Of a stretch of DNA of 24,849 nucleotides, positions 3,801 to 23,105 are shown in pieces; position 1 is the stretch's first letter; the number at the start of each line of letters is the position of its first letter. This DNA comes from a virus, in IMG/VR virus record IMGVR_UViG_3300050821_003410, positions 1-24,849 of that record. One strand, given 5' to 3'. The notes beneath the pieces were generated by a model. That model did no database searches. It saw only the letters and a program-made list of their open reading frames with translations, and was not told where the DNA came from. The position numbers were made by a program, and so were the translations under genes.

Positions 3801-3810
3801 ATATTATCGC
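3801..3810 (-). promoter_or_regulatory. GCGATAATAT element before the glycosyltransferase
   Basis: The minus strand reads GCGATAATAT, ending 3 bases before the GTG start of the family 9 glycosyltransferase and just after the stop of the DUF6527-like gene. It is one of six near-identical copies, all on the coding strand. GATAAT resembles a -10 box, which would give an almost leaderless transcript, but no -35 is seen. Confidence 0.5.
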
Positions 3811-4112: not shown

Positions 4113-5029
4113 GCAGCCAGTCCTTCTGCTTTGAACAATGAATCAAACACACGACGCCTTATATTGTCCGTGGGCTGCTCCTCAAGGTCAGCTTGATAGG
4201 GAATCCAACTGCATCTGCAATTTGGATGTGCGGGAATTAAGCCTCGAGCTTCGTCAATGGTGTAGGGACTGTCTGCGGCCATATCAAAACACTCATCACA
4301 CACTAAATCATCATCTGCTGTAGACCATTCTGCCTCGACTCCTAACTGCTTTGTGGGATCTAGTTTTTGATAACTGTCTAGCTGTCCCTCTGCATGGGCT
4401 CGTACAATCTCGGTTCTTGCAATGACGTTGGCGCGTGTGCGGGTTAAACCGTCAATCTGATCAGTCATGTCCCTTGCAACTTCGTCAGCGTGTGAGCCGT
4501 TTGCGAGCCCGTCTGCAAGGATGCGGTTTAGCTGCGTCTTTTCCGTGTTGGTGAGACCTTTCATTTCCTCAAAGGTGCGTGTGGCAAGCAACTGCACTTG
4601 CTCAATCGCAATCGGACTTCCCATAGACTCCGCAAGGAACGCTTCTGCGCTCTTATTGTAGAAATCAGGATCCGTCGCAAGGTCCCCTGAATGCGCGTCG
4701 AGGTAGGCTCGCGTCACGCCCTGCTTGTAGGCACTCTGGATATATTTAATAGTAAGGGGATCTGCGGCGTCTGTTTGTCCTGTTCCCATGAGCACACCCG
4801 CATCTATTTGATCTTGGAGCCAACTGCTAAAAGCTTTCAACTTACCACTGTCGGTAAGGAATTGATAGTCTGCATTCGCGACAGGCTTGCCGAGACCGTA
4901 GCTATCCTCGTGGAGGATGTGCTTTGTTACTTGCTCCTTGAGCCATTCTTGTCGTGCCGCTAGCTCGTTTGCAAACTTAGTCTGCAACAGCATCGTCCGG
5001 GAGGGATCAACTCGCTTGGCGACTGGCAT
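4109..5029 (-). CDS. phage head morphogenesis protein, SPP1 gp7/Mu gpF-like
   Basis: A 306-residue minor head protein. The C-terminal half carries the family signature: a helical region ending in RANVIARTEIVRAHAEG (about 199-215), then CDEC at 244-247 and HPNCRC at 268-273. The Cys/His set may bind metal. Proteins of this family are incorporated into the procapsid near the portal in small copy number and are needed for head assembly or DNA ejection. The N-terminal 150 residues are helical and less conserved. The start follows the upstream stop by one base (TGAcATG) and the stop overlaps the next gene by ATGA, placing it in the head operon. Confidence 0.9.
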   Translation of the reverse strand: MPVAKRVDPSRTMLLQTKFANELAARQEWLKEQVTKHILHEDSYGLGKPVANADYQFLTDSGKLKAFSSWLQDQIDAGVLMGTGQTDAADPLTIKYIQSAYKQGVTRAYLDAHSGDLATDPDFYNKSAEAFLAESMGSPIAIEQVQLLATRTFEEMKGLTNTEKTQLNRILADGLANGSHADEVARDMTDQIDGLTRTRANVIARTEIVRAHAEGQLDSYQKLDPTKQLGVEAEWSTADDDLVCDECFDMAADSPYTIDEARGLIPAHPNCRCSWIPYQADLEEQPTDNIRRRVFDSLFKAEGLAA

Positions 5030-8312: not shown

Positions 8313-8588
8313 TCATGTCAGTAAAGTTGGAGCTGAGGCAGCAGACGGAACTGCGCCTGCCATTCCCGCATCTACTATCTCCACACCATCTACAGGGAAA
8401 GGGATGCAGACTTTGCGACCGGGATTGCTCATCACCATTATATGGGTTTCAGTTAGCGCCTCAAGTAGTTGCTCCAGTTTCCTTTTCGTCGAAGCAACAT
8501 CCCAGGCATTGTCAAACGCCAATTCAACAGTGGAAAAGACTCCGCCGTTCTTGTGTTGGCTCTTTGCTGTGCAGATTTGGAGCTTCAT
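8313..8588 (-). CDS. unknown phage protein, 91 aa
   Basis: A 91-residue protein starting in an ATGA overlap with the upstream gene. It has a strand-rich start (MKLQICTAKS), a long helix at about residues 27-48 (AWDVASTKRKLEQLLEALTE), then IMVMSNPGRKVCIPFP and an Ala-rich tail. The pattern looks like a small alpha/beta protein of unknown role. It belongs to the small-gene run between terminase and portal. Confidence 0.62.
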   Translation of the reverse strand: MKLQICTAKSQHKNGGVFSTVELAFDNAWDVASTKRKLEQLLEALTETHIMVMSNPGRKVCIPFPVDGVEIVDAGMAGAVPSAASAPTLLT

Positions 8589-8959
8589 TCGATCTCCTCT
8601 TCTACCAAATACAACAAATCAACTTCTGGTTCAAACCAAACATCATCTATAATATGTCCAATAGCTTTGATCTTGCTGTAATTGCTACGAATGCGGCAAT
8701 GTTTGCCTTTTAGGTCTTCCCACTTATCCACTCCCACTGTTCTTAAGATTCGAGAAATAAACTCCATACCATACGCGGTGCCCTGACGGCATTTAAATTT
8801 CCCTTTGCCGTCTTTTATGGGAGTGTCTAAACAATAGCCTCCAAATCCTTGACCTGCTCCCTTCCATTCTAAATAGACAAAACAAGACAGGATTCCATGA
8901 TCTTCAGTTCCGAGCATGGTCCCTGTGATTTTGGCGTTGCGTTCTTTATACTCGTCCAT
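8585..8959 (-). CDS. conserved-type phage protein next to terminase, 124 aa
   Basis: A 124-residue protein. The N-terminal part has ITGTMLGTEDHGILSCFVYL (residues 11-30) and then GQGFGGYCLDTP (about 37-48), a combination I have seen in small conserved proteins of other phages, with no known function. The C-terminal part has WEDLKGKHCRIRSNYSKI and an acidic end. It begins 6 bases after the terminase stop, with a GCGATAATAT element over that stop, and ends in an ATGA overlap. It may bind a ligand through the Gly-rich loop, but that is speculation. Confidence 0.65.
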   Translation of the reverse strand: MDEYKERNAKITGTMLGTEDHGILSCFVYLEWKGAGQGFGGYCLDTPIKDGKGKFKCRQGTAYGMEFISRILRTVGVDKWEDLKGKHCRIRSNYSKIKAIGHIIDDVWFEPEVDLLYLVEEEIE

Positions 8960-8962
8960 GCT

Positions 8963-8972
8963 ATATTATCGC
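8963..8972 (-). promoter_or_regulatory. GCGATAATAT element at the terminase stop
   Basis: The minus strand reads GCGATAATAT, with the terminase TAA stop inside it and the next ATG 3 bases after it. It is a second exact copy of the element seen before the glycosyltransferase. Confidence 0.5.
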
Positions 8973-11618: not shown

Positions 11619-11653
11619 ATAAAAACGCCTCACTACATTATCGCAGTGAGGCG
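11619..11653 (-). terminator. rho-independent terminator with the repeated motif as its loop
   Basis: The arms CGCCTCACT and AGTGAGGCG (plus-strand 11626-11634 and 11645-11653) form a perfect 9-base-pair stem. On the minus strand the stem is followed by TTTTTATTG, so it terminates minus-strand transcription. The 10-base loop is GCGATAATGT, a copy of the element seen near several gene starts. It lies after the coiled-coil membrane protein gene and 11 bases before the next gene start. Confidence 0.85.
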
Positions 11654-11973: not shown

Positions 11974-12167
11974 ATGTTTTGTTGTTGGTTGTGGTTACTT
12001 ACTAAAAACGTGCCAGGGGACCTGAACACACTACCCTTTAGCTACTCTCATGTGTTGTAATCAGTCTCTTCCACTATATTCTATCCCCGTTTTCACTTGG
12101 TGAGTTTCTGAGACGACGTCTGAGTCCCTAACCCTGCCAAGTTACTGATACGGAGCCTAACAAGATA
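11974..12167 (-). other. intergenic leader region, no supported gene
   Basis: 194 bases without a supportable gene. On the minus strand it starts in a GCGATAATAT element, contains a TCAGACGTCGTCTCAG-type imperfect palindrome (about 12105-12120), then a GATAGAATATAG stretch near 12070-12080 that resembles the repeated motif, and ends in an A/C-rich leader (CCACAACCAACAACAAAAC) before the ATG at 11973. A 4-bp CAGG/CCTG hairpin near 12010-12020 is too weak to call. I found no tRNA-like cloverleaf. It may hold a promoter and a structured leader. Confidence 0.4.
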
Positions 12168-12174
12168 TTATCGC
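12165..12174 (-). promoter_or_regulatory. GCGATAATAT element at the end of the 151-residue gene
   Basis: A third exact copy of the element, with the TAA stop of the 151-residue gene inside it. It lies about 190 bases before the next start. Confidence 0.45.
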
Positions 12175-14268: not shown

Positions 14269-14723
14269 GCTCCACCCGCTTTCTGTGTGGCGGCGTGCGC
14301 TGCGATGGACTGCACAAGCGCGTGCGCTCCGTGCGGGTCTTTTATTTCTCCATCAGAATTCGACCATAACGGGTGTCGGTCGCTGTAGTAATGCGCAAAA
14401 AAGGCAGCCTCGTTCAGCAATCGAGCCAGCTCAGCGTTCGCGCTGCTCAGGGCAGCCTCTCTATCTACTCCGCGCTGAACCATATCAGCGGACACTCTAG
14501 CGCGCTGTTCGGAAGCTGCGGATAAATTGTCGAAAGCCGCCACCATCGCGGCGTTCTCGCGCTCGAGCTTGGATCGTAGGTGGTTGCTCGACCTCTCTAA
14601 ATCTCGCATCCGATCTTTAACATACTTTAAACCACACTCTCGTAATTCATACGACTCGAATGCATCATCCGTAATGGGCGTTCTCGGCGTCGGCACGCTG
14701 GCGGGGGGGTTGTCGGTAGTCAT
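14265..14723 (-). CDS. coiled-coil protein, 152 aa
   Basis: A 152-residue protein with a Pro/Thr-rich start (typical of phage proteins beginning MTTDNPPASVPTPRTPITDD), then a long charged helix from about residue 28 to 106 likely to form a coiled coil. The C-terminal part (HYYSDRHPLW... HALVQSIAAH) may be a small cap. The N-terminal pattern occurs in many phage accessory proteins whose role is unknown. Overlaps: ATGA at the start, GTGA at the end. Confidence 0.65.
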   Translation of the reverse strand: MTTDNPPASVPTPRTPITDDAFESYELRECGLKYVKDRMRDLERSSNHLRSKLERENAAMVAAFDNLSAASEQRARVSADMVQRGVDREAALSSANAELARLLNEAAFFAHYYSDRHPLWSNSDGEIKDPHGAHALVQSIAAHAATQKAGGA

Positions 14724-15012: not shown

Positions 15013-15788
15013 ATTGGAATAGCCTGCTTCATTACATTATCGCTTGATCCATTAGTCAGCTGCTTCTGCGCTTCCTCCGCTTGTTGGAGCTCCTTCATTG
15101 CTGTCTCTATTTCGAGAAGGCACTCTACGGACAACTTCAATTTATGGAGCGGAAGCACGTTGTGATTTATGGTCCCTGTGTGCTCGATTGTCAGCTTGTC
15201 AGAATATCCACGTTTCGCGTTATAAGTTCGGTTGGCAAAGATTACCGCAAGTGGATGGCCTTCCTCCGCAAGCTTCAACAGTCCTTTCTCAAAGAAATTC
15301 CCTTTGTGCCACTCCATCTCTCTTATCAGCTGTTGGAACTTAGGATCCCGTTCTCCCCATCCCTGCAAGATGCCTAATGGTACATTGACAATGCGGCACG
15401 CCTCACTCGCATTGAAGTTTGTCGCTATCATGGCATGGAGCCATAGTTGCTGTCGTACTCGTGTAGGATATCTGCCTAATAGTGTCTGGGTAAGCTCATG
15501 TCCATTCTTTTGATCGGCATTCCATTCTATCTCGTCCCACAGCTTGCGCATATCCTCAGATAGATGGTTATACACATAATCTGCGTACTTCTCTGTTTTC
15601 TCAGTGTCTTTCCTTGCTAAGTCTATCGCATATCTGAGGGCCTCATGCTTTTGCACCCATCCGTTGAAGTTAGTAATATGGATATTTAGAGCACGCGCTA
15701 GCTCCATGTTACTGAGCCCTGTCTTGGCTAAGATGTATGCATCTACGGGCACTCTGTCGTTATATTTCGTGGGAGTTCCTTTAGCCAT
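15009..15788 (-). CDS. probable terminase small subunit / helix-turn-helix DNA-binding protein
   Basis: A 259-residue protein with two regions that look like helix-turn-helix units. The first is near residues 20-45 (ILAKTGLSNMELARALNIH, then FNGWVQKH). The second is near 120-150 (NFNASEACRIVNVPLGILQG, then WGERDPKFQQLI). It is followed by LLKLAEEGHPLAVIFANRT and a AKRGYSDKLTIEHTG segment typical of phage terminase small subunits. That protein recognises the packaging site and recruits the large subunit. The start at 15788 (8-base overlap) is preferred over an ATG six codons earlier. It lies 4.5 kb upstream of the large subunit, unusually far. Confidence 0.72.
   Translation of the reverse strand: MAKGTPTKYNDRVPVDAYILAKTGLSNMELARALNIHITNFNGWVQKHEALRYAIDLARKDTEKTEKYADYVYNHLSEDMRKLWDEIEWNADQKNGHELTQTLLGRYPTRVRQQLWLHAMIATNFNASEACRIVNVPLGILQGWGERDPKFQQLIREMEWHKGNFFEKGLLKLAEEGHPLAVIFANRTYNAKRGYSDKLTIEHTGTINHNVLPLHKLKLSVECLLEIETAMKELQQAEEAQKQLTNGSSDNVMKQAIPI
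15034..15043 (-). promoter_or_regulatory. GCGATAATGT element inside the end of the terminase-small-like gene
   Basis: A copy with G for A at position 9, inside the last codons of the upstream gene and 22 bases before the ATG at 15012. A promoter for the downstream small genes would fit. Confidence 0.4.
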
Positions 15789-17266: not shown

Positions 17267-17351
17267 AAATTATAGTGAGCAGTTTCACCACATGCTCAGG
17301 TGGTCCAGCTTCAACTAACAATTCCTGCGAATCGACGCGCAGGAAATTCAA
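17169..17351 (-). CDS. unknown small protein, 60 aa
   Basis: A 60-residue frame beginning at a TTG in a TTGA overlap with the QueC stop and ending in a GTGA overlap with MazG. The first half (EAGPPEHVVKLLTIIYESA) looks like a normal helix; the second half is less certain, because another frame over the same bases gives a more protein-like reading (17093-17266). A frameshift joining the two is possible. No family recognised. Confidence 0.45.
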   Translation of the reverse strand: MNFLRVDSQELLVEAGPPEHVVKLLTIIYESAVGIQNKGYQSLLETIRSRMAQTKSQLHA

Positions 17352-18076
17352 GTTTGGTTTTCGTAGGTGAGTTTGAAGTTATTCTTAACGAGGAGCTCCA
17401 GCGAGGGAGCGTCTGCGGCGTACTCAGTGGGGTCAGGGATGCCTGCGAGGTAGAATGCCTCTCTGCGCTCGATGCAGGTACCACAGCGCCCACAATGCAG
17501 AGGACCCCCAACATAACAACTCCAAGACTCGCGCAAGTCAACACTAAGCTCCGCAGCTCGCTTGACAATATCGGCCTTGCTCATGTGAATGAACGGACGA
17601 ATAAGTTCGATCTGGCGATAAGTGCCTTTGTGGATGGCGCCTGCCATGTTGATCATGAAATCCTCACGGCAATCAGGATAGATCGCGTGGTCGCCGGCGT
17701 GAGCTGCAATGACAACACCATCCGCCTCGAGGCTCTCGGCAAGGCCTGCTGCGATCGACAGCATGATGCCATTACGAAACGGCACCACCGTCTGCTTCAT
17801 CACATCCGCCTCATAGTGGCCAGGAGGGATCGTGCCGCCTGACATGAGCAAGTGACTCTTGAAGTAGTGGCCGATGAAGCCCAGCGGGAGCGTGTAATGC
17901 GGCAGCTTGAGCTTGTCCGCGTGCAATGCTGCAAAAGGAAGCTCTTTCGGGTTGTGCTTGCTGTTGTAATCAAAGCTAGCAACACCCACCACCTGATAGT
18001 CGTTGTGAGCTGCGATATGGTGTAGTGCTGTGACTGAATCCATTCCGCCTGAGCAGAGGACGATGACTTTTTTCAT
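17348..18076 (-). CDS. queC: 7-cyano-7-deazaguanine synthase QueC
   Basis: A 242-residue enzyme converting 7-carboxy-7-deazaguanine to preQ0 with ATP and ammonia. Visible features: SGGMDS at 9-14 (ATP PP-loop), DYNSKHNPKEL at 36-46 (DYGQRHxxEL equivalent), VPFRN at 98-102, HAGDHAIYPDCR at 126-137, and Cys 187, 195, 198 and 201 for the structural zinc. Length is normal. ATG 18076 (MKKVIVLCSGG) is chosen; a GTG 12 codons earlier has an AAGGAG 5 bases upstream and is possible. It follows QueF by 50 bases. In phages preQ0 is made to modify DNA guanine or to supply host tRNA queuosine. Confidence 0.93.
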   Translation of the reverse strand: MKKVIVLCSGGMDSVTALHHIAAHNDYQVVGVASFDYNSKHNPKELPFAALHADKLKLPHYTLPLGFIGHYFKSHLLMSGGTIPPGHYEADVMKQTVVPFRNGIMLSIAAGLAESLEADGVVIAAHAGDHAIYPDCREDFMINMAGAIHKGTYRQIELIRPFIHMSKADIVKRAAELSVDLRESWSCYVGGPLHCGRCGTCIERREAFYLAGIPDPTEYAADAPSLELLVKNNFKLTYENQT

Positions 18077-18126: not shown

Positions 18127-18534
18127 TTAAAATCCACTCTTGGAAGTGTCCGCAGAGGCGCAAGCAACGATTGACACCCCACCTCGAGCTTTCTGTGTGA
18201 TCTGCACATGGACACGGTGAGCGACGAGGGCTTTCTGAATGTCGTGTGCAATAATAGAGGCAAACTTCTCACAGAAGTGACCCTGGTTGCGGAAGTGCTG
18301 GAGATAGAGTTTGAGACTCTTGCTTTCCACGCACAGCTCGGAAGGCTGGTATTCGATTTCCACTTTGTACCAATCCGGTTGATTAGTGACGGGACAGTTC
18401 GCCGTGACTTCGTCGCTAATGCACGTGACACGATGCACGCCCTTGGGTGTTTTGAACGTGTCAAATTGAGTGAAGCGAGTCACCTTGCGGCCAAGTGCTG
18501 CGGTGGAAGGCAGAGGTTGTTTTTTCATTGTCAT
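18127..18534 (-). CDS. queF: QueF-like preQ0 reductase, short type, with altered FHE motif
   Basis: A 135-residue protein of the single-domain QueF type, which reduces preQ0 to preQ1 with NADPH. CPVTNQPD at 47-54 holds the Cys that forms the covalent adduct and the catalytic Asp. ESKSLKLY at 70-77 is the QueF-defining motif. FRNQGHFCE at 81-89 aligns with the usual FRN-x-G-x-FHE, so the His is replaced by Cys while the Glu that binds the base stays. Whether it is a normal reductase is therefore open. Starts at 18534 or 18528 are both possible. A GCGATAATAT element ends one base before the first ATG, after a terminator. Confidence 0.87.
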   Translation of the reverse strand: MTMKKQPLPSTAALGRKVTRFTQFDTFKTPKGVHRVTCISDEVTANCPVTNQPDWYKVEIEYQPSELCVESKSLKLYLQHFRNQGHFCEKFASIIAHDIQKALVAHRVHVQITQKARGGVSIVACASADTSKSGF

Positions 18535-18535
18535 T

Positions 18536-18545
18536 ATATTATCGC
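18536..18545 (-). promoter_or_regulatory. GCGATAATAT element before queF
   Basis: A fourth exact copy. It lies between the terminator at 18551-18598 and the QueF ATG, ending 1 base before it. Of all copies this has the best promoter position, because upstream transcription stops just before it. Confidence 0.55.
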
Positions 18546-18550
18546 TGTGT

Positions 18551-18598
18551 TCATAAAAAGAGCGCCGCAGGATAATCCAATAACCTTTGGCGCTCTGA
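18551..18598 (-). terminator. rho-independent terminator between the 148-residue gene and queF
   Basis: AGAGCGCC (18559-18566) and GGCGCTCT (18589-18596) form an 8-bp GC-rich stem. The 22-base loop contains smaller self-complementary stretches (GGATAATCC). On the minus strand the stem is followed by TTTTTATGA. It ends the early/replication block. Confidence 0.82.
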
Positions 18599-18616: not shown

Positions 18617-19063
18617 CTAGGTACAAAAGTATTCGCGGTTGTCAATGCACGCTGTCACGCGACCTACTCGCAATTGATCGAAATCATTTTGAGTGGAAGG
18701 CCACGGAGCAGGAGGGCAGTGACGACTATTCCTGTCGTATGCTGGTCCACCTGGTCCTGCGGGAAAGAAGATTGCAGGCGCTTTTGTGCGCTGTGTGACT
18801 TTGTGTGAGATCAAAGTCAGATGCTTACCCCGAACCTCAAAGGTGGATTCAACACAATGATCCGATCCCGTGTGTGCTTTGTCAAAGCCAACAACCCTGG
18901 ATTTGCCTTCAGCTGCAATTGTAGGCGCATTACGCATCGCTAGCGTGTGCGGCAGCGTTGCGACGTTGGTTTGTGCGGGCTTTGCAGCAGCAGGAGCTAG
19001 CTTTGCGGCTGCTTCGGCACGAGCTGCACGATTGCGGGCTTTGTTTTCTTGGCGTTTATTCAT
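18617..19063 (-). CDS. unknown protein, Ala-rich start, 148 aa
   Basis: A 148-residue protein with a basic, Ala-rich N-terminal part (ARNRAARAEAAAKLAPAAAK, then PAQT), likely disordered, and a compact rest with KSRVVGFDKAHTGSDHCV, LTLISHKVTQRTKAPAIFF and a Cys/Asn-rich end. The start follows an AAATCC element directly (AAAATCCAATG), with no space for a Shine-Dalgarno site. No family recognised. It lies between the AAA+ ATPase and the terminator, so it is the last gene of the block. Confidence 0.64.
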   Translation of the reverse strand: MNKRQENKARNRAARAEAAAKLAPAAAKPAQTNVATLPHTLAMRNAPTIAAEGKSRVVGFDKAHTGSDHCVESTFEVRGKHLTLISHKVTQRTKAPAIFFPAGPGGPAYDRNSRHCPPAPWPSTQNDFDQLRVGRVTACIDNREYFCT

Positions 19064-19071
19064 TGGATTTT
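19063..19071 (-). promoter_or_regulatory. AAATCCAA start element, copy 1
   Basis: The minus strand reads AAAATCCAATG, with the ATG of the 148-residue gene touching the element. The upstream gene's TAA stop is joined to its left side. Confidence 0.5.
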
Positions 19072-20794
19072 ATTGTTTGGTTGGAGTGACGTTCTTAACT
19101 GTCGGGAAGGTAACAAAGGGAGCCACGCGGCGGATTAGCTCGATTCCCTTTTTCTCTTGATGGAAGTTGCTGATAGAAACCGCTGTGGCGAGTTTGAGGA
19201 GTGTTTTGACATTGCGACCTGAAATGCAAGGAAACTCTTTGATTAGAGTTTCGATTTCTTTGTCAGTGAGATCCACGTCGTAGTTGTCAGACAGCACACG
19301 CCAGATTTGCTTGAGGCTGTTCGCATCAGGCAAATCATATTTGATGTGAGCAATAGCACGAGACATGATGGCGTCGTCAATAGCGTCAGGGCGGTTGCTT
19401 GTCATGAACAACACACCTTGGAAGCGTTCGAGCATACGCAGGAACACTCCGACAATGGCGTTCTGCTGGAGATCGTTTTCACGCGCTCTCACATAGACGT
19501 CAGCCTCGTCAATAAGAAGGATGGCGTTCCAGCGGGTGGCTCGTTTGAGCACGACACCTAACTGCTCCTCCAACTTTTCTTCTTCCGTACCAAGCTGGGC
19601 GCATTGGATAACGTACAGCGGGCGTTTGATTTGCTCGCTGTACACCTCTGCGGTGAGCGTTTTGCCAGTGCCAGGCAAGCCTGTAGCAATCACAATCACG
19701 CCACCTACTTTTCCTGTCACAATGTCTTCCATGTGATGCGCAGCTCCCTCGATCAGGACGGTGACAAGCTCCTTAACTGCGGCAGGAAGGATCAACTTGC
19801 TCTCTAGATTCGTCTTGTAGACATAGGGCTTGAGTGCTGTGACGTGCGCAGTGATGAATTCGTGAGAGTCAAGCGAGAAGATTTGGATATAAGGATGGAT
19901 TGGTTTGATAAACGTGTATTTCTTTATCAAATCTGTTGCCTCCGAATCTTCAGGCTCGTCGTCTTTATCGTTCTTATTGTTCTTCCACCAAGCACAGTAA
20001 CGCTGCGTGCGCTCGTGTTTGTCGTCGTCATCCCGTTCCTTCTCGTCATCAGGATCACCATCATTGTCAATAACGACACGAGTAGGAACACCATCACGAG
20101 TCAAGGAGATCGTTTTTTCGTTTGAGCTGCGCCACCAGTTGCTGCTTTCTCTTTCAGCAAATCCGTAACCAGAGGCAAGAAACTGAGTGCCTGTCATTGT
20201 AAGGAGCTCTTTATATCGAGATAGATGCTGCTCCCACAAAGCGAAGCTTTCAGGCGTCTCGCGGTACAGTTCTTCGTCTTCCATTACTTCCGAGACCTTG
20301 CGCCGTCCCAGCACCGTGTCTTCGCCAAACCTTACACTTTTTTCTTGTGCTTCACCGTCAAAAATAGCTTCCATCTTTAGATAGACAAATGCAGGATGGC
20401 GATACCCGTCTCTGTAATACGCTGCATGATACTCACAATGTACGAGCAAGTAAGGCACGAGCACACCATCGTCATTGTGCGTGAAGACAAAGCGATGCTC
20501 AGCCTTGCGGATATACTCAGTGATAGCGACTTCGAGTGCAGCTAGCGTCTTGACAGATTCTCCTTCGGGGTTGCGCTTAAGGATTAAATAACTTGACAGC
20601 TTCGCGTGCAACGCATGGTTCGCATTAGCCGCGTGTTGAAGTATTTTTGCCGTGTTCTCTTCGCTGAGATCCTCAGCGTTAAAGGCGACACGTTGTCCGC
20701 CTGTCTTCCATCTGAGATCCTCAAATAGTTTCTTAGCGGCTTCAAGTGAGCCAAACGCGGTTTCGAGGAATTGTGCTGATGCTGTTAATTTCAT
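19070..20794 (-). CDS. AAA+ ATPase with large N-terminal domain and acidic insert
   Basis: A 574-residue protein. The AAA+ core is at the C-terminus: GLPGTGKT at 372-379 (Walker A), LLIDEAD at 426-432 (Walker B), MTSNRPD at 464-470 (sensor 1), an SRA with the likely Arg finger near 479, and GRNVK at 526-530 (sensor 2 region). Residues 1-240 form a domain I cannot name. Residues 243-288 are a highly charged segment (DNDGDPDDEKERDDDDKHER) and likely flexible. The order resembles AAA+ proteins that remodel complexes or unfold partners; the target is unknown. An AAATCC element precedes the start. Confidence 0.85.
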   Translation of the reverse strand: MKLTASAQFLETAFGSLEAAKKLFEDLRWKTGGQRVAFNAEDLSEENTAKILQHAANANHALHAKLSSYLILKRNPEGESVKTLAALEVAITEYIRKAEHRFVFTHNDDGVLVPYLLVHCEYHAAYYRDGYRHPAFVYLKMEAIFDGEAQEKSVRFGEDTVLGRRKVSEVMEDEELYRETPESFALWEQHLSRYKELLTMTGTQFLASGYGFAERESSNWWRSSNEKTISLTRDGVPTRVVIDNDGDPDDEKERDDDDKHERTQRYCAWWKNNKNDKDDEPEDSEATDLIKKYTFIKPIHPYIQIFSLDSHEFITAHVTALKPYVYKTNLESKLILPAAVKELVTVLIEGAAHHMEDIVTGKVGGVIVIATGLPGTGKTLTAEVYSEQIKRPLYVIQCAQLGTEEEKLEEQLGVVLKRATRWNAILLIDEADVYVRARENDLQQNAIVGVFLRMLERFQGVLFMTSNRPDAIDDAIMSRAIAHIKYDLPDANSLKQIWRVLSDNYDVDLTDKEIETLIKEFPCISGRNVKTLLKLATAVSISNFHQEKKGIELIRRVAPFVTFPTVKNVTPTKQ

Positions 20795-20798
20795 GACT

Positions 20799-20807
20799 TT
20801 GGATTTT
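20799..20807 (-). promoter_or_regulatory. AAATCCAA start element, copy 2
   Basis: AAAATCCAA sits 4 bases before the AAA+ ATPase ATG, after an A/C-rich stretch (CAACCACAA). There is no purine-rich Shine-Dalgarno sequence. Confidence 0.5.
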
Positions 20808-20819
20808 TGTGGTTGTCGA

Positions 20820-21248
20820 TTACTTTAGTTTCTGGATGAAGGCGATGGCCTCGTCAACACGCTCTTTCGGCATGAGGTCGCGACGGGCCACGCTCTGCGT
20901 GATATGCATGGAGTAATTGTAGCAGAGCAAGTCATCCCAGTCTTTCCCCATCTTATCGAGGATCAGAATGCGCGACTCACCGTAGGAGGTTGAGATGGCA
21001 AAGTGCCCGTCGGGGACAGAACACTCGGGAAAGATGCGCGAGGGCACAGCGGATTTGGCTTTGATATTGCGCAAGATAGCTGCATCCGTATGGCCATCTA
21101 GTGAAGCTTCCATAACAGCTTTCTTTTCCTTGGGCTTGGCGTCTGCAAAGAAATCATCGTCATCGTCTCCGAAGTCAATGAGTGGTTTGGTGGACTTGAG
21201 CATCTTGGAAACTGCTGCCGTGCGTCCAGGTTTTGGTTCTTGTTTCAT
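20820..21248 (-). CDS. unknown protein with acidic N-terminal region, 142 aa
   Basis: The start at 21248 (MKQEPKPGR) is preferred because an AAATCCAA element touches it; an ATG 18 codons earlier would overlap the upstream gene. The N-terminal part has an acidic run (DFGDDDDDFFAD). The rest has PSRIFPECSVPDGHFAIST, RILILDKMGKDWDDLL and a C-terminal helix with KERVDEAIAFIQKL. It may be a small globular protein with an acidic tether, possibly a partner of the AAA+ protein next to it. Function unknown. Confidence 0.62.
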   Translation of the reverse strand: MKQEPKPGRTAAVSKMLKSTKPLIDFGDDDDDFFADAKPKEKKAVMEASLDGHTDAAILRNIKAKSAVPSRIFPECSVPDGHFAISTSYGESRILILDKMGKDWDDLLCYNYSMHITQSVARRDLMPKERVDEAIAFIQKLK

Positions 21249-21256
21249 TTGGATTT
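21249..21256 (-). promoter_or_regulatory. AAATCCAA start element, copy 3
   Basis: CAAATCCAAATG: the element touches the chosen start of the 142-residue gene. A CGATAATAAC stretch (21267-21276), related to the other repeated motif, lies about 20 bases further upstream. Confidence 0.48.
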
Positions 21257-21276
21257 GATTGTTGGTGTTATTATCG

Positions 21277-21597
21277 TTAGCGGTTGACTTTGCGGATGTC
21301 ACGCGCCAGCTTTTGCTCGCGTGCGTACTTGTCTTTGGCGGCTTTGCGCTCTGCCATCTTTTCTCTGTCTGCTTTGTTGAGACGGCATTTCATAGCGTAG
21401 GTGTAGACGTCAATGACAGTCATTTGCTCAGCGCGGTGACCGCGAGCACGAGCAGGACGAATGCTAATGATGTCTTGGATATCACTTCCATTGCCGGGAA
21501 TGAGCGTAACAGCGAGGCGCTTGCCGCTGTCGGGTCCGTAGAACCGTGACAGCGGAGTAAGGGCGAGGCGATGGACTTGTTTCTTTAGTGGTGTCAT
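21277..21597 (-). CDS. unknown phage protein, 106 aa
   Basis: A 106-residue basic protein. The first half has RFYGPDSGKRLAVTLIPGNG and ISIRPARARGHRAEQMTV, a strand-rich segment like small phage nucleic-acid-associated proteins. The second half is a charged helix (LNKADREKMAERKAAKDKYA). No family can be named. The start follows an AAATCC element that also covers the upstream gene's stop. Confidence 0.64.
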   Translation of the reverse strand: MTPLKKQVHRLALTPLSRFYGPDSGKRLAVTLIPGNGSDIQDIISIRPARARGHRAEQMTVIDVYTYAMKCRLNKADREKMAERKAAKDKYAREQKLARDIRKVNR

Positions 21598-21602
21598 TTT
21601 GT

Positions 21603-21611
21603 TTGGATTTT
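21603..21611 (-). promoter_or_regulatory. AAATCCAA start element, copy 4
   Basis: TTAAAATCCAAACAAAATG: the element overlaps the TAA stop of the 290-residue gene and lies 5 bases before the start of the 106-residue gene. Confidence 0.48.
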
Positions 21612-22482
21612 AACTGACCTGGAGTTGCTTAACAGCTGAAACTGATTTGATGACTGGGCGCTTTCCGAAGGCGAACGAGGGATCGTCTTTGGAGGGCTCA
21701 AGTGTAACAGCAAAGGTAATTTTATCGCCGATGCGCCGATCCTGAACATGCTCAGACGGTATCGTGCAATACACTTTCGCACCGGATTCAAGTTCGACAA
21801 TCATCTTGAAAGTGTCGCCGTAGAACTCGCTGTGTTGGGTTTTGAATTTGACGATGGTCCCTGTTACGGTGACACGGCCGCTAGGAGCGATTGCAGCCGG
21901 GTTCGCAACGCGCTGCGCACGCTCTGCGGCCCACTTACGATCCCGTTCCATGCTCGTGAGTACGCAAGAGATTTGACGCTCGCTCAGCTCGCCGTAGGTT
22001 TCCAACTTGCTGAGCACGTCTTGCGCGAAACCGTTCTTGGCGTGCTCAGGCTTGGAAATGTCATTCACCGCTTGCTGGATGTCAGGATGCGCTTCGAGGA
22101 ACGCAAGACGCTTCTTGAATAGCGCGACACGCTTTGCCTCTGTGCTCGCTTTGCTGCGGATGCACTTCATCCTGAATTCGCTCGCGTTGGGAATTGACAG
22201 ACGATGGACGCAGATATCGCCGAAGCAGACGCGCTGGCCGGTAGGGATGTGATCCGCTGCGACAACGTAGCGAACGGTTCCATTTCCGCAATGCGTGCAA
22301 CGATGCGCAGAGCAGTTTTTGGAAAGGAACAAGGCTTCCATTTCCCTGCGATGCGCTTCCCTCCACCGTTGCCAAACTTCCAAGTCCATTCCCAAGACAT
22401 ACTCGGGCGGCTTATTGTCAAAGTAGTCAACAATGACATACTGCGTCGGATCAAAGTTGACGGGATTGTGGATGGTGCTCAT
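21610..22482 (-). CDS. zinc-site and OB-fold-like phage protein, 290 aa
   Basis: A 290-residue protein. Cys 62, 65, 86 and 91 (CTHC, then CFGDIC) form a probable zinc site. The middle is helical, and the C-terminal part from about 198 (RVTVTGTIVKFKTQ, MIVELESGAKVYCTIP, GDKITFAVTLEPSKDDP) looks like an OB fold with the pattern seen in phage proteins of the same layout. I recall similar tails in other phages but no assigned function. A nucleic-acid-binding role is reasonable. It starts in an ATGA overlap with the upstream gene. Confidence 0.7.
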   Translation of the reverse strand: MSTIHNPVNFDPTQYVIVDYFDNKPPEYVLGMDLEVWQRWREAHRREMEALFLSKNCSAHRCTHCGNGTVRYVVAADHIPTGQRVCFGDICVHRLSIPNASEFRMKCIRSKASTEAKRVALFKKRLAFLEAHPDIQQAVNDISKPEHAKNGFAQDVLSKLETYGELSERQISCVLTSMERDRKWAAERAQRVANPAAIAPSGRVTVTGTIVKFKTQHSEFYGDTFKMIVELESGAKVYCTIPSEHVQDRRIGDKITFAVTLEPSKDDPSFAFGKRPVIKSVSAVKQLQVS

Positions 22483-22742
22483 GACGTGAGCTTTCCTTTG
22501 ATGTGTTTGCAGACGAGGGTTTCGATCGTGTACTGATTGGGAAGCAGGCCTGTCATTTCTTGGACATATTTATCGAGGCCTGCGCGAACTTGGAAACGAG
22601 CAGCTTGGTCGATGCTCGTCCATTGGATTTGTGGAACTTTGCGAGTGTGGACGACATCTATAACGAAAGTGACTTCTTTGAAGTAGAGGTCGCGCTCGGC
22701 GTCTTTGACAACGTAGAGTAGGAACTTTTTATCGGAGGGCAT
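22479..22742 (-). CDS. unknown small protein, 87 aa
   Basis: The start at 22742 (MPSDKKFLLY) is chosen because an AAATCCAA element precedes it; an ATG 14 codons earlier would overlap the upstream gene by 11 bases. It is strand-rich at first (FLLYVVKDAERDLYFKEVTF, VIDVV), then helical (TSIDQAARFQVRAGLDKYV). It ends in an ATGA overlap with the zinc/OB protein. No family recognised. Confidence 0.62.
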   Translation of the reverse strand: MPSDKKFLLYVVKDAERDLYFKEVTFVIDVVHTRKVPQIQWTSIDQAARFQVRAGLDKYVQEMTGLLPNQYTIETLVCKHIKGKLTS

Positions 22743-22747
22743 GTTAT

Positions 22748-22756
22748 TTGGATTTT
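22748..22756 (-). promoter_or_regulatory. AAATCCAA start element, copy 5
   Basis: AAAATCCAAATAACATG: the element lies 5 bases before the ATG of the 87-residue gene, after an A/C-rich run (CAACCACAACAG). Confidence 0.48.
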
Positions 22757-22773
22757 CTGTTGTGGTTGTTCGT

Positions 22774-23043
22774 TTACGAAACAAAAGGAGCGAGATGAGA
22801 AATTGGAAAACGCTCCCGATTAGGAATTCTACCTACGCCGTATTTTGATCCCCACATATGGTGGACGGAACGCGAAGTGATATGCACCGCATGGAGTTGC
22901 CCTCCTGCGGTCCAGCACACGCTTTTAACTCCTGATTTTCCTAATCCTAAAAGGACCGCGGTGCGCTCCCAAATGGAAGCTGTGACTAGTCCTGTTTCTT
23001 TGTTGTGCCAGTTGCCGTTGATTGAATAGTTGTCGATTTTCAT
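22774..23043 (-). CDS. unknown small protein, 89 aa
   Basis: An 89-residue protein with SINGNWHNKETGLVTASIWE, VKSVCWTAGGQLHAVHITS and a basic end (KYGVGRIPNRERFP). It looks strand-rich and compact; no family recognised. It starts just after an AAATCCAA element at the end of a leader that can fold in two ways. Confidence 0.62.
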   Translation of the reverse strand: MKIDNYSINGNWHNKETGLVTASIWERTAVLLGLGKSGVKSVCWTAGGQLHAVHITSRSVHHMWGSKYGVGRIPNRERFPISHLAPFVS

Positions 23044-23105
23044 TTTGGATTTTGTTTTTAACTTAACTGATTACAAAAGCATAAGTTTGTAATCCAAAAC
23101 CGCAA
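23041..23105 (-). promoter_or_regulatory. structured leader with two mutually exclusive helices, candidate promoter
   Basis: On the minus strand GATTACAAA (23094-23086) and TTTGTAATC (23077-23069) can form a perfect 9-bp hairpin. TTTTGGATT, overlapping the first arm, is also an exact complement of AATCCAAAA at the start codon (the start element, copy 6, 23045-23053). The two helices share bases and cannot form together. A weak promoter, TTGCGG (23105-23100), 16 bases, TATGCT (23083-23078), overlaps. No T-run follows the hairpin, so it is not a standard terminator. Confidence 0.45.

Follow-up and report, generated by a model that had tools for sequence, protein, structure and literature searches.

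An exact octamer at the gene starts of one phage accessory operon and its coincidence with gene-exchange breakpoints

Introduction

What keeps the same eight letters in front of gene after gene in a single phage operon? The question is raised by IMG/VR virus record IMGVR_UViG_3300050821_003410, of which a stretch of 24,849 nt (the window) was searched on both strands for the octamer AAATCCAA; six copies stand at start codons in one block of minus-strand genes. Phage genomes are mosaics with seams at gene borders, and it is debated whether short shared sequences or selection alone place those seams. In the present phage, which is independent of the Shine-Dalgarno (SD) sequence, such seams coincide with an exact eight-letter start tag. 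Should the tag prove to be a translation signal as well, this would account for the immediate expression of a swapped-in gene, and would provide a defined sequence for studying SD-free initiation in uncultured bacteria. We put the probability at about 0.5 that AAATCCAA serves one accessory operon as a start-associated sequence, being read on SD-independent phage messenger RNA (mRNA) and doubling as a gene-exchange seam.

Results

An exact and sharply bounded octamer in one block

The window holds ten copies of AAATCCAA on both strands against 1.22 expected, and the maximum in 100 shuffles was five. Six minus-strand copies lie at starts, all in the sense orientation and -1 to 5 nt before ATG, and account for six of the seven starts of the operon. 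The initial annotation had placed the element 0-5 bases before six starts; the six starts are confirmed, but the range begins at -1, the copy at 19063 sharing an A with its start codon. Each start has a single copy and not a tandem array, and two copies (ending at 21610 and 19070) overlap the stop codon of the preceding gene. The remaining four copies, at 22623 and 16591 on the minus strand and at 2597 and 3568 on the plus strand, are inside genes or antisense to them.

Two contigs allowed the same phage to be followed beyond the window. A 32-kb contig (G001, IMGVR 3300021401_000027) is 99.9% identical to the window over 15.9 kb and reaches 15.5 kb further upstream, and an adjoining 28-kb contig (G002, IMGVR 3300021401_000029) carries on into structural genes. 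AAATCCAA is found at 6 of the 86 starts called in these contigs, all six in the block, those outside it having been called by a simple purpose-written gene caller. The earlier claim that the element is absent outside the block is therefore upheld.

When the letters of each 20-nt leader were shuffled for 200,000 rounds with composition kept, no round gave three AAATCCAA-bearing starts and the maximum was two; a chance origin from A/C-rich leaders was rejected on these figures. A degenerate Kozak-like preference was rejected because copies with one mismatch are no commoner than chance: there is one at the starts of the 32-kb contig (1.7 expected), and the 86 starts have two alongside the six exact copies, where shuffles predicted 2.6. 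A recently duplicated leader was rejected as well, the flanks of the six copies (24 bases upstream and 12 downstream) being unrelated, with a likeness no greater than that of shuffles. An element that is either exact or absent, in flanks that are unalike, is a sharply bounded octamer and neither a duplicated leader nor a base preference.

It could be argued that these are ordinary A/C-rich, SD-free leaders of the S1- or Kozak-like kind, in which the octamer arose by chance. A/C-rich leaders do occur throughout this phage and in its SD-free distant relative L018 (RecA-like protein 61-63% identical, gene order similar). However, the outcome of the shuffles and the lack of any excess of one-mismatch copies both speak against this, and only three of the six leaders have an A at -3, which acts as a positive determinant in Flavobacterium johnsoniae (PMC6847099). 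This explanation appears extremely improbable.

The seven genes of the operon (Table 1) are separated by spacers of 31, -4, 12, 28, 25 and 6 nt in order, and are mainly of unassigned function, together with one AAA ATPase; the products of 21277-21597 and 18617-19063 are small and basic. At the only start without the octamer, 22482, the ATGA overlaps the preceding stop, so that initiation by coupling is possible. The consensus scan, with loops limited to 3-8, did not list the terminator-like hairpin at the operon end. These features support the view that AAATCCAA marks one transcription-unit-like accessory block. The earlier suggestion that it might mark replication genes was not borne out, as the upstream replication set (primase, a helicase loader-like protein, a DnaB-like helicase, PolA in two genes, clamp, clamp loader, a gp32-like SSB and a RecA-like protein) has no AAATCCAA at its starts. 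The phage also encodes a 5'-3' exonuclease.

The element stays in place while the genes change

Comparison with the mosaic relative L015 (IMGVR 3300050821_000819; DNA about 80-98% identical) proved informative. L015 retains AAATCCAA at three starts, and at two of these the gene behind it is replaced or removed. Upstream of 23043 (junction a) homology continues through AAAATCCAAAATGAAAA and then stops; behind it L015 encodes an unrelated 190-aa protein matching phrog_4687, with the motif at about 4686 and the ATG at 4695, and motif, spacing and ATGAAA are as in the window. At junction b nothing ahead of the motif is related, and homology picks up exactly at the AAAATCCAA that belongs to gene 22742; the five spacer letters differ (ATAAC against CCCAC), the 5-nt spacing is the same, and the following ATGCCCTCC is identical. 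A short open reading frame (ORF) takes the place of the 290-aa gene in L015 (junctions c and d), and the motif before 21597 is missing there, with TAAAATG fused (junction d). At junction e homology stops at the last base of the AAATCCAA before the ATPase: L015 has the same CAACCACAAAAATCCAA and no ATPase, and its motif is followed at once by a 19063-type gene. Copy 6 forms the right edge of the ATPase cassette (junction f). Junctions b, d, e and f are on the motif or directly behind it, and taken together the L015 junctions indicate that the element stays with its place while the genes behind it change. In L018 (11348-13701), compared by eye with 18617-20794 of the window, the AAA ATPase and a 19063-type gene stand in reversed order, which may be a further sign of the ATPase moving as a cassette.

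A second motif, CGATAAT(ATA), lies 0-11 nt before several ATG or GTG starts, often with the stop codon of the previous gene inside it (CGA TAA). At its copy at 18538..18544 (junction h), L015 is longer by about 135 bp, the additional sequence lying between two CGATAAT copies. Homology with G001 breaks directly behind the copy at 8965..8971 (junction k, ATG 8959), gene 8585-8959 being missing in G001, and homology with G002 resumes at the copy at 3803..3809 (junction l, GTG 3797); all three copies are on the minus strand. CGATAAT, which is shared with L018, may be a -10 box (GATAAT) that yields leaderless or near-leaderless transcripts.

Both motifs together mark 20% of starts, yet 8 of the 12 homology ends that fall at gene starts are at motif-bearing ones (binomial 5e-4). 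Counted by event the figure is 6 of 7 (P about 0.009), and circular shifts of all 18 homology ends gave P = 9e-4. These tests are approximate: the ends are paired, breakpoints cluster in the accessory region, and the data tested are those that first drew attention to CGATAAT.

Such coincidence raises the possibility that AAATCCAA is primarily a recombination linker, whose identity is kept by short-homology recombination of cassettes and which needs no translation role. Its place before starts would then follow from gene junctions being the only tolerated sites. The position of junctions b, d, e and f, the ATPase cassette that sits between two AAATCCAA copies and is absent in L015, the like behaviour of CGATAAT at junctions h, k and l, and the presence of a RecA-like protein and a 5'-3' exonuclease are all consistent with a linker, and the strict exactness of the octamer fits homogenisation. 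Against this, motif and 5-nt spacing are retained at junction b although the spacer letters have changed, and the copies have unalike flanks, whereas recombination tracts would tend to extend. A pure linker, moreover, need not stand at every uncoupled gene start, and 8 bp is short for efficient homologous recombination. On balance we think it unlikely, if by no means far-fetched, that a linker is all that the octamer is.

Leaders, folding and the search for a promoter

No SD sequence precedes the six AAATCCAA starts, as had been reported, but this is not special to the block. In the 32-kb contig SD-like tetramers occur before 6 of 51 starts (4.7 in shuffles), as compared with 16 of 24 (6.3 in shuffles) in an SD-using relative. 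With tetramers this near the shuffle level, the lack of SD is a trait of the whole phage.

The octamer could instead be recognised by 16S ribosomal RNA. The 16S tail of bacteria has a UGGAU stretch directly 5' of the anti-SD, and AUCCA(A) in the motif could pair with this (U)UGGAU, a contact of the SD type that lies nearer to the start codon. A partner 5' of the anti-SD would indeed fall beside the start codon on the mRNA, as seen here, and 5-6 bp could form with a duplex energy of -5.5 to -5.6 kcal/mol, which 1.7-1.8% of motif shuffles reach; the tails used are common ones and may not be the host's. Part of the rRNA partner, however, belongs to helix 45, the other approximately 80 starts of the phage do not use AUCCA, a Bacteroidota-type tail gives only 4 bp, and a shuffle fraction of about 0.02 after choice of the target is weak. 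We rate pairing with the 16S tail as highly improbable.

At the five internal genes the sequence around the motif is essentially unfolded, and a hairpin at AAATCCAA was therefore rejected for them. In the leader of the first gene, AAAATCCAA has a possible pairing partner in TTTTGGATT further upstream; folding there does not surpass shuffles (z -1.4), and the same leader in L015 folds differently (z -1.2). An Rfam search of the window returned nothing.

A role in the DNA, as part of a promoter or as an operator before each gene, would suit a short repeat upstream of genes, and the first gene has an upstream inverted repeat, GATTACAAA...TTTGTAATC. A consensus promoter scan, however, found no sigma-70-like site ahead of the AAATCCAA starts, and within this compact operon two of the copies share bases with the stop codon of the gene before. 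Since AAATCCAA touches the start codon, a -10 or -35 role would put the transcription start inside the gene. We judge a DNA-level element improbable. The inverted repeat itself, at about 23066-23098 on the minus strand, has its arms 8 nt apart, and ahead of it lies TTTTGGATT, the motif in inverted orientation; the region is kept in L015 with one change, and is possibly the operator or promoter region of the operon.

Distribution in other phages

The comparison covers fragments, and the element was found in two lineages. L018 has no AAATCCAA at its starts; its only copy falls within the final codons of a small ORF, about 20 nt ahead of the ATPase. Nor does the element stand at starts in the neighbourhood of other related ATPase genes. 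A 17-mer leader search of viral contigs found AAATCCAA before an ATG in two more, unrelated contigs (L023 and L027). The 40-kb contig behind L023 has nine copies and a different leader repeat of its own, and as only one of the nine is at a called start, both cases look like chance. No relative of the RecA-like protein or of the ATPase was found in a genome collection searched for the host, the DNA of the block did not match annotated phages, and a protein search with 21277-21597 gave no additional lineage.

L018 also contains a tmRNA gene (14415-14714; Rfam RF00023, 87.8 bits) that ARAGORN missed and that could help to identify the host. Genes for QueC, a QueF-like protein and a queuine tRNA-ribosyltransferase-like protein (window 17348-18070 and 18127-18534; L008:8579-9529) probably represent a phage pathway of 7-deazaguanine modification of DNA or tRNA.

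Table 1. Coordinates of the octamer, the operon and associated features (window positions unless a locus is named)
Feature	Position	Strand	Remarks
AAATCCAA copy 1	23045..23052	-	ATG 23043, spacing 1; first operon gene
AAATCCAA copy 2	22748..22755	-	ATG 22742, spacing 5
AAATCCAA copy 3	21603..21610	-	ATG 21597, spacing 5; first A is last base of preceding TAA stop
AAATCCAA copy 4	21249..21256	-	ATG 21248, spacing 0
AAATCCAA copy 5	20799..20806	-	ATG 20794 (AAA ATPase), spacing 4
AAATCCAA copy 6	19063..19070	-	ATG 19063, spacing -1; last A is A of ATG, first A within ATPase stop TAA
Seven-gene operon	18617..23043	-	AAATCCAA at every start but 22482
89-aa gene	22774..23043	-	No match in PHROG search; unrelated 190-aa gene in its place in L015, motif to motif
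290-aa gene	21610..22482	-	phrog_4265, 1.2e-19; sole block gene without AAATCCAA
AAA+ ATPase, 574 aa	19070..20794	-	Pfam PF00004, 3.6e-16; PHROG 29662, 1.3e-85; between AAATCCAA direct repeats; absent from L015
Terminator-like hairpin	18559..18596	-	AGAGCGCC...GGCGCTCT, then T run; operon end; fold -19.6 kcal/mol (76-nt stretch)
CGATAAT, window	21270-21276, 18538-18544, 15036-15042, 12167-12173, 11637-11643, 8965-8971, 3803-3809	-	
CGATAAT, relatives	L015:6047, 6883, 7018; L018:2801		

Discussion

The octamer is exact and sharply bounded, has a set position in a single operon, is retained before different genes in a relative and coincides with breakpoints. A sequence that is strict, single-stranded and one-directional, and that is found at each uncoupled start whatever the gene, is best explained as an mRNA site read at initiation; by inference it would have a reader and may affect translation. 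The initial annotation had preferred a translation-initiation or regulatory site to a promoter, and the fixed position, the one orientation, the gene-independent retention in L015 and the unstructured leaders make this the better fit.

Each copy in the polycistronic mRNA would belong to an unstructured A/C-rich stretch, part of which the ribosome covers when it stands at the start codon. The copy is probably recognised as single-stranded RNA. Its reader may be the ribosome or a factor associated with it, with S1 and the 16S tail (through AUCCA and UGGAU) as candidates, or else an RNA-binding regulator of the phage or the host. All genes that are uncoupled from the preceding stop could in this way be started or regulated together, and a gene gained, lost or replaced between two copies would keep a working start signal. 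The copies would also serve as short seams, since the start of nearly every gene in the operon bears identical letters. The shared letters may be the cause of exchange or may merely make its products viable, and both readings fit the sequences compared here.

Several observations count against a translation signal that doubles as a seam. A rigid contact would not permit the observed variation in spacing, which amounts to six nt. L015 is without the element at the equivalents of 21597 and 21248 and retains the genes, and the element is consequently not indispensable. With two lineages only, and none of the loci of other related ATPase genes carrying it, the depth of conservation is small. The breakpoints cluster within the accessory block, they are not independent of one another, and breakpoints favour gene starts in any case.

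A more far-reaching version, in which AAATCCAA acts as a socket, is tentative and rather unlikely. In this case a reader encoded by the phage or the host would recognise the octamer at the start codon, in a host free of SD, and set translation for the whole operon; a single short sequence would be both the translation signal and the seam of recombination. Recognition independent of the gene would permit motif-to-motif exchange of accessory genes without loss of expression.

Comparison with known systems

Short boundary sequences are known from phage mosaicism, for which a model of conserved boundaries has been put forward (PMC3233612), and gene 14 of phage Corndog lies between 17-bp direct repeats (PMC4351075). 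The likeness is that a gene stands between two direct repeats in one relative where the other has a single repeat, and that breakpoints coincide with them; AAATCCAA differs in being attached to start codons and in recurring through a whole operon. Bacteroidota have an SD-free, A-rich, Kozak-like start context that is a positional preference (PMC6847099). The leaders described here are also SD-free and A-rich, but AAATCCAA is an exact octamer and half of its starts lack the A at -3.

T4-type phages reportedly possess mobile regulatory cassettes (Arbiol et al. 2010, as cited in PMC4177764). Such cassettes reportedly carry promoters and stem-loops. The resemblance lies in a regulatory sequence tied to the shuffling of small accessory genes, and the difference in the absence of a promoter site and of any fold at the internal AAATCCAA copies.

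In marine Beggiatoaceae, TAACTGA heptamers replace the SD immediately before starts and have been proposed as the binding site of a post-transcriptional regulator (PMC4679880). AAATCCAA is likewise a fixed short sequence right before starts in the place of the SD; the heptamers, however, are tandem and spread over a bacterial genome, whereas AAATCCAA occurs as single copies in one phage operon. An unrelated phage (G005, IMGVR 3300042347_001356; L029 and L030) has CTTAAAA CTTAAAA CT direct repeats directly before at least six ATG starts, and these resemble the TAACTGA repeats of SD-poor bacteria.

The closest parallel is the start-associated sequence (SAS) of Cluster K mycobacteriophages, which is short, asymmetric, nearly invariant and located 3-7 bp before the starts of non-structural genes (PMC3203893); SAS and ESAS also occur in Cluster EF Microbacterium phages (PMC7302621). 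The SAS is a 13-mer (GGGATAGGAGCCC / GGGAAAGGACCCC; Cluster K consensus GGGATAGGAGCCC) with an SD core, AGGAG (PMC3203893, PMC7302621), and about half of the Cluster K sites have a 17-bp imperfect inverted repeat, the ESAS (PMC3203893). AAATCCAA shares the asymmetry, the exactness, the single orientation and the nearness to the start, lying slightly closer to the ATG, and it too is limited to non-structural genes and stands before genes of different families in related phages. It is, on the other hand, an 8-mer without an SD that does not match the SAS consensus, no ESAS-like inverted repeat is linked to its copies, and it occurs in a single operon, where the breakpoints of gene exchange coincide with it. 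On the best reading AAATCCAA works like the Cluster K SAS without being a member of it, and is of an SD-free kind, confined to one operon and coincident with the seams of exchange.

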